A stretch of 57,158 nt of DNA from Gemmatimonadota bacterium (GCA_003223455.1 QHVE01000017.1:1-57158), one strand, 5' to 3'. Positions 1,019 to 6,796 are shown, counted from the first letter of the stretch. Made by a program: numbers and translations. Notes: generated by a model from the sequence alone, not told the origin.

Positions 1019-3685
1019 ATGACGAGCACTCTCCCCGCAACTCCCGCTGGGCACCACGTCGACGCGGGCGACCTTCGCGTGACGCGCGTTCGTGCCCTGC
1101 GCGGCCCAAACTATTGGCGCCTGGCTCCGGTGATCGCCTGTGACGTGCGCCTCGGATCGCTCGAGCAGCGGTCGACGGCGGAGCTCGCCGGCTTCAGCGA
1201 CCGATTGCTGGAGGCGCTGCCGACGCTGCGCGAGCACCCGTGCAGCCGAGGCACGGCGGGCGGCTTCGTCGAGCGCTTGCACGAAGGCACCCACGTGCCC
1301 CACGTCCTCGAGCATGTGTCGCTGGAGCTGCAAACCCTGGCTGGCAGCGACGTGAGCTTCGGGCGCGTCGTGCCATCCGGGGACGAGGGTGTCTGGTGGG
1401 TGATCGTCGCGTACGAGGAGGAGGAAGTCGGCATCCAGAGCATGCACGCGGCGGCGCGGCTGGTGCGCGCGTGCATCGAAGGCGCACGGTTCGACACGGA
1501 CGAGATGATCCACGATCTCCAGCGCCTGTACGAGACCGTGCGCCTGGGCCCCTCCACGGGGACGATCGTCGAGGAAGCGCGGCGGCGGGGGATTCCCGTG
1601 CGCCGGCTGAACAACCGCTCGCTCGTGCAGCTCGGGCTCGGACGCAACCTGCGGCGCATCCAGGCCACGGTCACCGACCGCACGAGCTCCATCGCGGTGG
1701 AGATCGCGCAGGACAAGGACGAGACGAAGCGCGTGCTCGGGAACATCGGCCTGCCCGTGCCGCGCGGCGACGTCGTGCGCACGATCGAGGACGCGATCGA
1801 GGTGGCCGAGGACATCGGATTCCCGGTGATCGTGAAGCCGCTCGACGCGAGCCACGGGCGCGGCATCTCGCGGCGCATCGACGACGTCGAGGGTCTGCGC
1901 CACGCGTTCGAGGACGCACGGCACTTCAGCCGTCGCGTCGTGATCGAGCACTTCGCGGCGGGGAACGACCATCGCGTGCTCGTCGTGAACGGGAGGGTGG
2001 TGGCATGCGCCGAGCGCGTGCCGGCGCGGGTGATCGGCGACGGCAGGTCGACGGTGCGCGCGCTGATCGAGACGGCGAACCGCGATCCGCGACGGGGTAT
2101 CGGCCACACCAAGATTCTCACCCACCTGCCGCTCGACGAGCAGACGGAGCGCTTTCTCGCCGTGGAGGGCCGCACGTTCGACAGCGTGCCGGCGTCGGGG
2201 GAGGAGGTGTGCCTGCGGCAGACGGCGAACCTCTCGACCGGCGGCACGTCGATCGACCGCACGGACGAGATGCACCCGGACAACAAGACCGCGTGCGAGA
2301 TCGCCGCGGCGGCGGTCGGACTGGACATCGCCGGCATCGACGTGATGACGGAGGACATCTCGGTGGCGTTCCGCGAGAACGGCGCGGTGATCATCGAGGT
2401 CAACGCGGGACCCGGAATCCGGATGCACACGCATCCCACGGAGGGGACGCCGCGCGGCGTCGGCGCGCCGATCGTCGACATGCTCTACCCGCCGGGCGTG
2501 GAGTCGACGATCCCCGTGATCGCCGTGACGGGCACCAACGGCAAGACCACGACGACGCGGCTGATCGCGCACCTGTTTCGGAACACCGGACTGACGGTGG
2601 GCTTCACGACCACCGACGGTGTCTATCTGCAGAACCGTCTCGTGATGGAAGGGGACATGACCGGCCCCTTCAGCGCGAACATCATCCTCACCAACCCGAC
2701 GGTGGAAGTGGCGGTGCTCGAGACGGCGCGCGGCGGAATCCTGCGCGCGGGACTAGGCTTCGACGAAGCGGACGTCGGCGTCGTGCTGAACGTCTCGCCC
2801 GACCACCTCGGCCTGCGCGGCATCAACACGATCGAGCAGCTCGCCGAGGTCAAGAGCGTGGTTCCGGCGGTGACGAAGCGCGAGGGGCACGCGGTGCTCA
2901 ACGCCGACGATCCGCTCGTGTACGGGATGCGCGAGGTGACCGGCGCGGACATCGTGCTGTTCTCCACGCGCGAATACGGGGAGAACGAGATCGTTGCCGA
3001 CCACGTGTCGCGCGGCGGGATCGCCGCGGTGATCGAACAGGGCACCTTCGTCATCCGGCGCGGGCGGCTGCGCATCCCGATCGCCGCCGAGCACGACGTG
3101 CCGCTCAGCGTCGGCGGAGCGGCGCGGTTCCAGCGGCAAAACGTGCTCGCGGCCATCGCCGCGACGTACGTGCAGGGCATGCGCTACGACGACATCCGCG
3201 CAGGGCTGCTGTCGTTCTTCCCGTCTCCCTCGACGACGCCGGGTCGCCTCAACATGATCCGCGTGCGTGGCGGCGGCCGCGTGCTGGTCGACTATGCGCA
3301 CAACGCGGCGGCGATCGGCGGCCTGGTCGACTTCGTCTGGAACACGCCGGCGGCGAAGCGGTTCTGCGTGCTCACCGTCCCCGGCGACCGCCGCGACGAC
3401 GACATCCGCGAGGCGGGCCGGCTGTGCGCGCGGTTCGATCGCGTGATCATCAAGGAGGACATCGACCGGCGCGGACGCGCTCGCGGCGAGATCGCCGAAC
3501 TGCTCAAGGAGGGACTCGTCGAGGGCGGACTCGATCCGTCGCGGATCGAGGTCCTGTACGAGGAGGGTGAGGCGGTGAACCGCGGGCTGGATCTGCTCGG
3601 CGAGGACGATCTGCTGGTCGTTCACGCGGACAAGGTGCCAGGGACGCTGGCGATCGTTCGCGAGCGCGCGGTGCAGGGCGCGTGA
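1019..3685 (+). CDS. cphA: Cyanophycin synthetase (CphA1 type)
   Basis: This 888-residue protein polymerises L-Asp and attaches L-Arg to each side chain, using ATP, to make the nitrogen store cyanophycin. The N domain (about 20-160) contains RALRGPNYW and H95-V-L-E98-H99. An ATP-grasp domain (about 200-480) contains IVKPLDASHGRGI near residue 270. A Mur-ligase-like domain (about 497-888) carries the P-loop GTNGKTTT at 505-512, then NVSPDHLG and a C-terminal VDYAHN motif. The length is normal for CphA1. In several studied CphA1 enzymes the N domain holds a cryptic metallopeptidase-like site that makes primers, and the HxxEH here fits that. ATG 953 is an in-frame alternative start; neither start has a clear ribosome site. 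The stop overlaps the next gene by 4 nt, so the cluster looks like one operon. Confidence 0.95.
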   Translation: MTSTLPATPAGHHVDAGDLRVTRVRALRGPNYWRLAPVIACDVRLGSLEQRSTAELAGFSDRLLEALPTLREHPCSRGTAGGFVERLHEGTHVPHVLEHVSLELQTLAGSDVSFGRVVPSGDEGVWWVIVAYEEEEVGIQSMHAAARLVRACIEGARFDTDEMIHDLQRLYETVRLGPSTGTIVEEARRRGIPVRRLNNRSLVQLGLGRNLRRIQATVTDRTSSIAVEIAQDKDETKRVLGNIGLPVPRGDVVRTIEDAIEVAEDIGFPVIVKPLDASHGRGISRRIDDVEGLRHAFEDARHFSRRVVIEHFAAGNDHRVLVVNGRVVACAERVPARVIGDGRSTVRALIETANRDPRRGIGHTKILTHLPLDEQTERFLAVEGRTFDSVPASGEEVCLRQTANLSTGGTSIDRTDEMHPDNKTACEIAAAAVGLDIAGIDVMTEDISVAFRENGAVIIEVNAGPGIRMHTHPTEGTPRGVGAPIVDMLYPPGVESTIPVIAVTGTNGKTTTTRLIAHLFRNTGLTVGFTTTDGVYLQNRLVMEGDMTGPFSANIILTNPTVEVAVLETARGGILRAGLGFDEADVGVVLNVSPDHLGLRGINTIEQLAEVKSVVPAVTKREGHAVLNADDPLVYGMREVTGADIVLFSTREYGENEIVADHVSRGGIAAVIEQGTFVIRRGRLRIPIAAEHDVPLSVGGAARFQRQNVLAAIAATYVQGMRYDDIRAGLLSFFPSPSTTPGRLNMIRVRGGGRVLVDYAHNAAAIGGLVDFVWNTPAAKRFCVLTVPGDRRDDDIREAGRLCARFDRVIIKEDIDRRGRARGEIAELLKEGLVEGGLDPSRIEVLYEEGEAVNRGLDLLGEDDLLVVHADKVPGTLAIVRERAVQGA

Positions 3686-4737
3686 CGACGAGCGTGACGC
3701 CCCCCGCGGCGGCGATGGAGATCAGGATGACGATGCTCCACGCCACGCGCGGGAAGAACTTCTGGTCGCTGCGTCCGGTGACCCGGATGGACCTCGCCGT
3801 CGGGGCCTACGACGACATCTCATCCGCTGCCGTTCCCGGCTTCGTGGACAGCCTCGTCGGCGCGATGCCGGGTCTCGTCGAGCATCGCTGTTCGATCGGC
3901 GAACGCGGTGGATTCGTGCTGCGGCTGCGCCGCGGCACGTATGCTCCGCACATCATCGAGCACGTCGCGCTCGAGCTGCAGACGATGATGGGCCACGACG
4001 TCGGCTTCGGAAAGACGCGCGGCGGCGACGTCGAGGGAGAATACACGCTCGTGTTCGAGCACGAGCACGAGCAGGTGGGGCTTCGAGCCGCCGCGCTCGC
4101 ACTGCAGACCGTGCAGCAGGCGTTCGATGGCGTGCTGGAAGCGGTCGATGCCGCGGTGACCGAGCTCAAGGCGATCGCCGAGACGCCGGACACGCCACGG
4201 CTCCATCACCGCGTGCTGTGCGGCGTCACGGGCGGCAGCGGCCGCGCCGAGGCGCAGCGACTCCTGCGTGAGCGGCTCGCCGACGACGGCGCGCTGGTGA
4301 TCGACGTCTCGCCGTCGTTCCTGCTCCAGGCGGGTCTCCCGTACGCGCGCTCCGAGATGGCGATCATCCTCGACGCGGAGCTCACGGACGTGCCGCCGCG
4401 CTATCAGGAGGCGGAGCGAGCGACACAGCTGGTGAACGTGCTCGCCGACGCCGTCGACCGCGACGGAATGGTCGTCTGTCCCGCCAAGGCGTGGGAGATC
4501 CAGGACTATGCGCGCGAGTCGGGCTGCCGCATCGCCGTGTTCGCGACGGACGACGACGTGACGGGGCGGGACAGCCGCCGAGCGCGCGCGGTCGCTCTCG
4601 TGCGGGACGGACGCATCGTGGTCCAGGGATGTGGTGACGACGAGGACCATGGACCGCTCGACCCCACGCTTCCGGCGACGTCCCAGGTGGCGGCGGCGCT
4701 CGCCCACGCCACGCTCAGCGTCGAGTGTGGCCGGTGA
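3682..4737 (+). CDS. Degenerate cyanophycin synthetase paralogue: CphA N domain plus inactive Mur-like domain
   Basis: The protein has 351 residues from GTG 3682, which overlaps the cphA stop as GTGA; ATG 3715 is an alternative that begins where CphA homology begins. Residues about 12-160 match the CphA N domain (LHATRGKNFWSLRPV) and keep H90-I-I-E93-H94 and the following LELQ. The ATP-grasp domain is absent. From about 178 the sequence is collinear with the CphA Mur-like middle domain, but GTNGKTTT is replaced by GGSGRAEA with Arg188 at the catalytic Lys position, and the DHLG motif is lost. It ends where the Mur C-terminal lobe would begin. It cannot be a ligase by known chemistry. The open frame and tight coupling to cphA and cphB argue that it is functional. 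A primer-making hydrolase, polymer anchor or CphA partner are inferences. Confidence 0.85.
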   Translation: MTTSVTPPAAAMEIRMTMLHATRGKNFWSLRPVTRMDLAVGAYDDISSAAVPGFVDSLVGAMPGLVEHRCSIGERGGFVLRLRRGTYAPHIIEHVALELQTMMGHDVGFGKTRGGDVEGEYTLVFEHEHEQVGLRAAALALQTVQQAFDGVLEAVDAAVTELKAIAETPDTPRLHHRVLCGVTGGSGRAEAQRLLRERLADDGALVIDVSPSFLLQAGLPYARSEMAIILDAELTDVPPRYQEAERATQLVNVLADAVDRDGMVVCPAKAWEIQDYARESGCRIAVFATDDDVTGRDSRRARAVALVRDGRIVVQGCGDDEDHGPLDPTLPATSQVAAALAHATLSVECGR

Positions 4738-5654
4738 GGCGCAAGCCCAACGGTCCTCCCCCCCGCGTCGACTCCCCCGCTCCCTCGCATCACGACCGCG
4801 ATACTCGCGGTCCGCTCGTGCTCATCGGCGGCGCGTGCACGCCGGACGGCGAGGCATTGGGCTCCTTTCTCGAGCTGGCGGGCCAGGTCGGCGGGCCGAT
4901 CGTGGGCATCACCGTGGCGTCGGAGAACCCGGTAGAGAGCGCGCGACTCTGGCGCGCCGACTTCCGCGCGGCGGGAGTGCAGAACATCGAGTTTCCGCGC
5001 GTCAAGCGCACGAGCGACAAGCTCGATCGCGAGCTGGCGGCGCGCATCGACGACGCGGGCGCCCTGTTCCTCGGCGGAGGCAATCAGGTCAAGCTGGTCG
5101 CGGAGCTGAGCGGCACGCGCAGCGAGGCGTCGATGAAGGCGCTGTCGGAGCGCGGCGGCGTGATCTGCGGCACGAGCGCGGGCGCGGCGGCCCTCACGGC
5201 GCTGACGATGGCCGGCGGAGAGATCGACGAGGAAGGCAATCTCGTCGAGCAGTACCTCGGGCCCGGCTTCGGACTGCTGGACTTCGAGACGATCGTCGAC
5301 ACGCACTTCTCGAAGCGTCGCCGGCTGCAGCGGTTGTTCGTCGTCATCGCCGGGAACCCCCAGCTGATGGGGCTCGGCATCGACGAGGATACGGCGCTGA
5401 TCGTGCGCGGTCACATCGGTGAGGTGGTGGGCGCCGGCGGCGTGACGTTCATCGATGGCCGCGACAGCGTGCGGTTCGACAATGCCGACGATCTGGAGAA
5501 GGGCCGCCAGCTCACGCTGAGCCATCTGCGCGTCGGGATCGTCGGCACGCACTACCACCTGAACCTGCGCGAGCGCGAGCTGGAGGTGCTCGTGCAGGGC
5601 GAGGCGAGCCCGCACCGGAGGACGCCGCCGTTTGTGGCAGCGCAGGGAAAGTAG
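4734..5654 (+). CDS. cphB: Cyanophycinase (peptidase S51), first copy
   Basis: Cyanophycinase is a cytoplasmic serine exopeptidase that cuts cyanophycin to beta-Asp-Arg dipeptides. The 306-residue protein shows the S51 hallmarks LFLGGGNQVKL, GTSAGAA with Ser148 as the predicted nucleophile, and DTHFSKRRRLQRL followed by GLGIDEDTALIV. There is no signal peptide. GTG 4734 overlaps the upstream stop as GTGA and is preferred; GTG 4725 is also in frame. It is the third gene of the synthetase operon, so synthesis and breakdown enzymes would be made together. A second cyanophycinase lies just downstream on the opposite strand. Confidence 0.93.
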   Translation: MRRKPNGPPPRVDSPAPSHHDRDTRGPLVLIGGACTPDGEALGSFLELAGQVGGPIVGITVASENPVESARLWRADFRAAGVQNIEFPRVKRTSDKLDRELAARIDDAGALFLGGGNQVKLVAELSGTRSEASMKALSERGGVICGTSAGAAALTALTMAGGEIDEEGNLVEQYLGPGFGLLDFETIVDTHFSKRRRLQRLFVVIAGNPQLMGLGIDEDTALIVRGHIGEVVGAGGVTFIDGRDSVRFDNADDLEKGRQLTLSHLRVGIVGTHYHLNLRERELEVLVQGEASPHRRTPPFVAAQGK

Positions 5655-5730: not shown

Positions 5731-6654
5731 TCACTTCGTTCCCGTCTTCTCCTCCGTCTCCTCCTCCGTCTCCTCCTCCATCGAGTCCGCTGGGTGCGCG
5801 GTCGGCCTGCGGGTGTGCAGGTCGAATCGGTCCCCCTGGCTCAGCATGTGGACCTTGATGTCGTACGAGGACAGCGTGCGCTCGGAGTCCTCCTCGCCGA
5901 GGTTGGAATAGCTCACCGTCGAGCCGTCCACGACGTAGACCGCACCGGCACCCAGTACGCGGAAGCTGCGGTTGTGCTCGACGATGATCGCCGTGTCCTC
6001 GTCGATGCCGATGCCGAGCACGCGCGGATTCTGGGAGACGGCCCCGATCAGCCGTGCCATCCGTCCGCGCTCGGCGAAGTGCTGGTCGATGAGCATGTCC
6101 TGCGCGAGCCCGAGGCCCGGCGCCATGAGCAGCGCCGACTTGATGCGGTAGGACGCCTCGCCGTTGTTCGCCACCAGCATCGTCTCGCTCATCGCGGATG
6201 CCCCCGCCGACGTCCCCGCGATCACGCCGCCCCCCTCGAAGATCTCCTGCACGCGCGAGAACACCGGCGTGTCGCCGATCTGGCTCGTGATCTTGAGCTG
6301 GTCGCCGCCGGTGAAGAACACCCCCGTCGCACCCTCGAGGATGCGCATCGCCCGCGGGGTCGTCGCCTCCTCGCGCGACTCGATGTCCAGTCGGAAGACG
6401 TGCGGCGCCCCGATGGCCCGGAACGCCGTCTCGTATTCCTCCCACAGGGATTCCGGTTCCGCGCTCGCCACCGTGCAGACGACGATCTTGCCATCGTCGC
6501 CCAGCCGATCGGCGACGGCGCGAAGGATCTTCCGCTCATCCGTTCGGTCCTCGTGGCCGCCGATGATGATCAGCGTGCCCTTGTGCGTCGCCCCCGCGCG
6601 TCCGCGGCGCAGGGGGCGCTCGAGAAACAGCTCGACTTTTCGGCGTGCGTCCAT
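5731..6654 (-). CDS. cphB: Cyanophycinase (peptidase S51), second copy
   Basis: A 307-residue S51 serine peptidase, clearly divergent from the first copy. It has LIIIGGHEDRTDE near the N-terminus, FFTGGDQLKI, GTSAGAS with Ser149 predicted as nucleophile, DQHFAERGRMARL, and GIGIDEDTAIIV. The GGHED start and the length match cyanophycinase. ATG 6654 is chosen because upstream in-frame sequence is not family-like. The C-terminus ends in an acidic, threonine-punctuated tail (EEETEEETEE) encoded by a short tandem repeat. It faces the cphA operon and must have its own promoter, so degradation could be controlled separately from synthesis. Confidence 0.92.
   Translation of the reverse strand: MDARRKVELFLERPLRRGRAGATHKGTLIIIGGHEDRTDERKILRAVADRLGDDGKIVVCTVASAEPESLWEEYETAFRAIGAPHVFRLDIESREEATTPRAMRILEGATGVFFTGGDQLKITSQIGDTPVFSRVQEIFEGGGVIAGTSAGASAMSETMLVANNGEASYRIKSALLMAPGLGLAQDMLIDQHFAERGRMARLIGAVSQNPRVLGIGIDEDTAIIVEHNRSFRVLGAGAVYVVDGSTVSYSNLGEEDSERTLSSYDIKVHMLSQGDRFDLHTRRPTAHPADSMEEETEEETEEKTGTK
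5748..5780 (-). repeat. Tandem 12-bp repeat encoding the acidic tail of the second cyanophycinase
   Basis: Three imperfect copies of TCTCCTCCTCCG (the first lacks 3 nt) run through 5748-5780 on the plus strand and encode Glu-Glu-Glu-Thr units on the minus strand. Every copy is a multiple of 3 nt, so copy-number change would keep frame and only change tail length. Confidence 0.7.
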
Positions 6655-6796
6655 CGGTTCGACGGGATTGGAGGTGGCGTGCGGTCTCGACACTCGTTCG
6701 TACAAACGACGTGCCGTCCGCATCGCGCCGCGGGCTGGCTCGGGCGCAGCGGTGGCACCATCTTGAGCCAGTCGACGCTCGCACTCCAATCCCTAC

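Follow-up and report, generated by a model that had tools for sequence, protein, structure and literature searches.

A stand-alone CphA-type N domain with a degenerate Mur lobe, a proposed endo-cyanophycinase, encoded between cphA and a cyanophycinase gene in Gemmatimonadota

The window, that is, the whole stretch of DNA analysed, comprises 57,158 nucleotides from a Gemmatimonadota bacterium (GCA_003223455.1, QHVE01000017.1:1-57158) with a genome of 4.96 Mb. A gene here called P1, with a GTG start codon, lies on its plus strand between cphA, which encodes cyanophycin synthetase, and a divergent cyanophycinase gene, cphBa. P1 combines the N domain of CphA with a central lobe of the Mur-ligase type whose catalytic residues are lost, and is proposed to be a stand-alone endo-cyanophycinase. 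The primer-making site of cyanophycin synthetase was first described in 2022, within a large three-domain enzyme (PMC9262961). In SuCphA1 it is a cryptic endo-cyanophycinase that binds zinc via C59, H79 and H83 and uses E82 as base, giving the motif Cx19HxxEH (PMC9262961). The features of the locus were as follows.

3682..4737, plus strand: P1, proposed endo-cyanophycinase of 351 amino acids, a CphA-type N domain followed by a degenerate central lobe of the Mur type (open reading frame, translation, Pfam PF18921, orthologues in 40 genomes, tree clade 100/98)
3682..3685, plus strand: GTGA, 4-nt overlap of the P1 start with the cphA stop (14 of 38 clusters share the -3 offset)
3721..4185, plus strand: P1 N domain, about residues 14-168 (PF18921 at 36-146; CphA1 structures match model residues 14-348)
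3889..3891, plus strand: C70, predicted third zinc ligand, SuCphA1 C59 (invariant in 37/37; role per PMC9262961)
3949..3963, plus strand: H90-x-x-E93-H94, predicted zinc ligands and catalytic base, SuCphA1 H79, E82 and H83 (invariant in 37/37; role per PMC9262961)
4204..4728, plus strand: central lobe of the Mur-ligase type that has lost the catalytic residues, about residues 175-349 (hhalign E 2.4e-5; shuffles z 6.4; Z about 15 to MurC central domains)
4231..4254, plus strand: degenerate P-loop GGSGRAEA (GTNGKTTT in CphA), Lys replaced by R188 (sequence; R188 in 35/37 orthologues)
1019..3685, plus strand: cphA, encoding a full-length cyanophycin synthetase 1 that has a complete Cx19HxxEH of its own (TIGR02068, 1123 bits, cut-off 850)
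4725..5654, plus strand: cphBa, divergent cyanophycinase (peptidase S51) with the nucleophile motif GTSAGA kept (TIGR02069, 157.7 bits, cut-off 126.6)
5731..6789, minus strand: cphBb, canonical cyanophycinase (TIGR02069, 276 bits)

Domain architecture and predicted hydrolase site

P1 was matched by PF18921 over residues 36-146 with an E-value of 3.7e-36 (124 bits against a Pfam cut-off of 27), and its top match in the PDB was SuCphA1 (E 8.7e-29). Residues 210-292 were aligned to the Mur part of 36 related CphAs by profile-profile comparison (hhalign, E 2.4e-5). Local alignment of the Mur half with CphA gave a z-score of 6.4, and an equal score was reached in none of 1000 shuffles. No match to the ATP-grasp domain or the Mur C-lobe was found in P1 in Pfam and NCBIfam profile searches, and the NCBIfam equivalog and subfamily cut-offs for CphA1 were not reached (159 of 850 and 166 of 877 bits). 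A working P-loop was found in none of the P1s, and the ARGG and DH motifs (D585 H586), both invariant across the neighbouring CphA family, are replaced in P1. An active ATPase at the P1 P-loop was ruled out, as the Lys and the next Thr are lost.

A structure model was calculated with AlphaFold2. The C domain was poorly modelled from seven P1 sequences (predicted local distance difference test score, pLDDT, of 61), and the score rose to 79.7 with CphA pieces added to the alignment. The top structural match of the model was SuCphA1 E82Q with bound polymer (Z-score 27.9, 26% identity). Residues 175-348 matched MurC central domains with Z-scores of about 15 and root-mean-square deviations (rmsd) of 2.5-2.7 Å.

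The complete Cx19HxxEH motif is present in P1 with the same spacing as in SuCphA1 (C70, H90, E93, H94). Ten residues were invariant in 37/37 P1 orthologues: H68, C70, S71, F78, R81, H90, E93, H94, G108 and Y121, the counterparts, in order, of SuCphA1 H57, C59, S60, F67, R70, H79, E82, H83, G97 and Y110. Metal, base or polymer roles have been described for all ten SuCphA1 residues and for E87 (PMC9262961). Across the alignment of 37 orthologues, 32 of 139 positions were invariant in the N domain and 5 of 176 in the Mur lobe. As judged from this alignment, the invariance of the metal ligands and base exceeds the needs of binding.

An earlier reading, made without database searches (the sequence-only reading), had described 3682-4737 as a CphA N domain followed by the central Mur part, with ATP-grasp domain and Mur C-lobe absent and GGSGRAEA (residues 184-191, Arg at 188) in place of GTNGKTTT (505-512 in CphA). 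This architecture agrees with the exact open reading frame, the PF18921 match, the profile and shuffle tests and the model. The two absences fit the lack of profile matches, and the P-loop replacement is as described. The structure prediction that had been suggested gave the best match to SuCphA1 E82Q noted above. The conserved H90-E93-H94 and LELQ, and H95/E98/H99 in CphA, were borne out; the zinc-binding Cys that completes the motif (C70) had been overlooked. On the residues present, the description 'catalytically dead' applies to ligase function only.

The retained Mur lobe was considered in the light of SuCphA1, whose bare N domain is insoluble, with a loop that packs on the M domain, and becomes soluble after Y14S and I17T (PMC9262961). 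The position of I17 is mostly occupied by a polar residue in P1. The M-domain residues S603 and E607 of SuCphA1 contact polymer in the N-domain cleft (PMC9262961). At the E607 position an acid was found in 36/36 aligned P1s (Asp in 35, Glu in 1) versus Ala in 32/36 neighbouring CphAs. The simplest reading is that the Mur lobe of P1 would form the second wall of the cutting cleft.

Operon, inheritance and selection

In about 30 of 38 clusters the P1 start codon lies no more than 20 nt from the cphA stop, and 14 of the clusters show the exact 4-nt overlap. In the window the 3' end of P1 overlaps cphBa by 13 nt. From its sequence, the GTGA overlap is likely to couple translation of P1 to that of cphA. 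In the window CphA the zinc motif includes H95/E98/H99 and the P-loop GTNGKTTT lies at 505-512, given the ATG start at 1019. No third CphA paralogue was found in the window's genome. P1 as the sole primer site of this genome was ruled out by the full motif in CphA; because that motif is complete, P1 would add dose or independent control, not a missing activity. The idea that a takeover by P1 led to changes in the CphA cleft (G97S, T101V, Y110W) was not supported, since two related CphAs from genomes without P1 (G342, G352) likewise have V101 and W110. The product of cphBa reads DTHF..RR.L at the position of DQHF in canonical cyanophycinases, and cphBa occurs only in P1-bearing genomes.

Orthologues of P1 were found in 40 genomes of two Gemmatimonadota families of one class (24/179 in the window's family, 16/21 in the second). 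The sequence-only reading had proposed a search for the same architecture beside cphA in relatives, and it was indeed found directly behind cphA in most clusters. A scan of 84,980 species with P1-specific patterns returned Gemmatimonadota only, although distant look-alikes elsewhere could escape such patterns. A plasmid collection yielded ordinary CphAs and relatives lacking the ATP-grasp domain (G-less), none covering 80% of P1.

In a maximum-likelihood tree of the N domain all P1s formed one clade (100/98) and the neighbouring CphAs another (100/99). Each clade is split by the two host families, so P1 is old and mostly inherited with the operon. A recent duplication of the neighbouring cphA was ruled out by the two separate, well-supported clades.

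The median pairwise ratio of non-synonymous to synonymous substitution (dN/dS, NG86) was 0.36 for P1, against 0.25 for CphA in the same pairs; taken separately, the N domain of P1 had a median of 0.28 and the Mur lobe one of 0.45. Absolute values by NG86 are inflated in GC-rich codons. P1 is under purifying selection, and its N domain is more constrained than the Mur lobe. The Mur lobe is shortened or diverged in two P1s (G023, G225), with the N-domain motif retained. In one genome (G001, L040:3220-4854), where cphBa is absent, the P1 frame continues for about 170 codons beyond the usual end.

Proposed function and its alternatives

CphA elongates cyanophycin at the C-terminus of the polymer, and cyanophycinase removes dipeptides from chain ends. 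P1 is probably a stand-alone zinc endo-cyanophycinase that makes chain ends both for CphA, as primers, and for cyanophycinase, a reading held with moderate confidence. We infer the following scheme for how P1 binds zinc and cuts, what its Mur lobe does and whether it serves synthesis or turnover. C70, H90 and H94 of the N domain would hold zinc and E93 would act as general base; the poly-Asp backbone would be cut within the cyanophycin chain, as by the SuCphA1 N domain. The Mur lobe, no longer a ligase, would pack on the N domain, keep it soluble and supply the second wall of the polymer cleft. Every cut would create a new C-terminal end, to be elongated by CphA as a primer or digested by the co-transcribed exo-cyanophycinase. 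P1 would determine how many chain ends are available for synthesis and for breakdown alike, in keeping with a gene order that places it between the two enzymes.

When the SuCphA1 N domain is provided on its own in trans, a CphA1 that depends on primers no longer needs them (PMC9262961), so priming can come from a separate protein. The operon that P1 shares with cphA and a gene for cyanophycinase was also counted in favour of a hydrolase. In one further genome (G269) both zinc histidines of CphA are lost (HVLEH to FVLER) and R70 is replaced by Ala, with the G and M domain motifs intact, and the adjoining P1 retains the complete site. Several codons of this CphA are two bases off those of the sister genome, so the loss is no sequencing slip. 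By its sequence, P1 may be the only endo-cyanophycinase of that species. Among the three roles named in the sequence-only reading, the stand-alone hydrolase is best supported, by the residues invariant in 37/37 orthologues; the polymer anchor is weakened and the CphA-binding regulator improbable, as set out below.

Several points weigh against P1 as a chain-end-making endo-cyanophycinase. The complete zinc motif was found in 40/41 related CphAs, including that of the window, and P1 is on paper redundant for priming. The loss in G269 is one instance, and the complete motif is absent from 17% of CphA1s overall (PMC9262961). E98 of P1 (SuCphA1 E87) is kept in 35/37 orthologues and is Ala in the other two, and the position of SuCphA1 E90 is T, S or N in P1 and not conserved. 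The residue conservation could serve binding alone. CphA pieces entered the alignment of the model, and the fold match depends in part on the homology claim; the sequence tests are independent of it. The placement of the N domain relative to the Mur lobe is uncertain in the model (rmsd 7.1 Å over both domains).

The alternative that survives best is that P1 is mainly degradative, opening chains for the exo-enzyme CphBa, with priming incidental; this is possible, if clearly less than probable. Of the 200 genomes in the two families, 38 have both P1 and cphBa, 2 have P1 without cphBa, none has cphBa without P1 and 160 have neither (Fisher 6e-39, uncorrected for relatedness of the genomes). In three second-family genomes P1 lies away from cphA yet beside cphBa (G324, G385, and G299 at about 3 kb from cphA), and CphA already has a primer site of its own. 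P1 is tied to the cyanophycinase gene as tightly as to cphA, and for that reason a role in degradation must stand beside priming. Most of the co-occurrence is, however, explained by inheritance of the whole operon, and P1 is usually translationally coupled to cphA. P1 also adjoins cphA without cphBa in two genomes (G001, G023), and the G365 genome has its cphBa at another place. On a bolder reading of about the same probability, P1 and CphBa might form a dedicated endo/exo depolymerising pair, P1 being a synthetase stripped to its cutting site. A single operon would then encode the enzyme that builds the polymer, one that makes chain ends and one that digests it, and nitrogen storage and release would be controlled by the number of chain ends, not by enzyme amount.

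Strict gene order and the 4-nt overlap with cphA would also suit a non-catalytic partner or regulator of CphA, a pseudoenzyme subunit whose site is kept for polymer binding; activators that are dead paralogues are known in other enzyme systems. Such a role is unlikely: binding leaves the invariant metal ligands and general base unexplained, P1 is without the ATP-grasp domain through which CphA dimerises, and it is retained in genomes where cphA is no longer close by (G324, G385). A role of P1 in anchoring polymer or binding granules is very improbable. CphA N domains do bind polymer via charged helices (PMC9262961), but the Arg/Lys residues at SuCphA1 positions 127, 131 and 134, in the helix after the zinc site, a presumed anchor, are mostly kept in CphA and are A, E or Q in P1. 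A decaying, functionless cphA duplicate, suggested by the lost ligase residues and by a few shortened or broken copies (G437, G225, G023), can be dismissed: the clade is old, the frame is open in dozens of genomes, the hydrolase residues are invariant and dN/dS is well under 1, and neutral decay, which the sequence-only reading had named as a refutation, was ruled out on the last two grounds. In the G437 copy (L135:3941-4800) a break in the frame between residue 114 and residue 115 marks either a pseudogene or an assembly error.

Known systems and related proteins

The active site is known already; its separation into a stand-alone ligase-dead protein appears to be new. No such form was found in the non-subscription literature searched, or beyond Gemmatimonadota in the collections searched, in line with the earlier statement that no description was known. 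The SuCphA1 N domain (PDB 7LG5, 7TXU, 7TXV; PMC9262961) shares PF18921, Cx19HxxEH and the surrounding and polymer-contact residues with P1. There the site forms a domain within a functional synthetase, whereas P1 is a separate gene without ATP-grasp domain, Mur C-lobe or ligase residues. CphA2 (PDB 7TA5, 8FXH) is, like P1, derived from CphA with a non-working Mur part. It keeps the ATP-grasp domain, polymerises dipeptides and is without the N-domain motif (PMC9262961), the reverse of P1.

CphB, CphI and CphE (peptidase S51) act on cyanophycin, and cyanophycinases are the neighbours of P1. They are serine exo-peptidases of another fold, whereas no match to the S51 domain with its Ser nucleophile (Pfam PF03575) was found in P1. 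HxxEH is also shared with the M16 peptidases (inverzincins); the third ligand is an upstream Cys in P1 and lies downstream in M16, P1 is far smaller, and it has no Pfam M16 match.

Inside a three-domain synthetase the effect of the site is hard to separate from synthesis. With a natural stand-alone version in dozens of genomes, the cutting reaction can be assayed, mutated and dosed alone. P1 could be used to find out if synthesis or breakdown is limited by the supply of chain ends, and it might raise cyanophycin yields in hosts with primer-dependent enzymes; an active N domain has given yield gains of about twofold (PMC9262961). The hosts of P1 are soil Gemmatimonadota, in which cyanophycin would be a nitrogen store.

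Other CphA-related proteins were observed in the searches. A second type of cphA cluster in other Gemmatimonadota (L046-L053, L127-L130) consists of a cyanophycinase, a CphA about 45% identical and a protein of roughly 570-620 amino acids. The last has an intact Mur ligase, no ATP-grasp domain and an N-terminal part without PF18921 match or zinc motif, and is roughly the mirror image of P1. Extra CphA paralogues without the zinc motif were found in three P1-bearing genomes (L054:5135-7910 in G007, L055:5359-7263 in G018, L056:978-3653 in G002); the ATP-grasp domain is missing in the L055 paralogue and appears degenerate by eye in that of L056. Like P1, a G-less CphA relative on a plasmid of Legionella adelaidensis (WP_058462805, L139:4004-5869) has Cx19HxxEH in its N domain and lacks an ATP-grasp domain; it adjoins cyanophycinase and isoaspartyl peptidase genes. 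Unlike P1, it has a complete Mur ligase domain with a P-loop.

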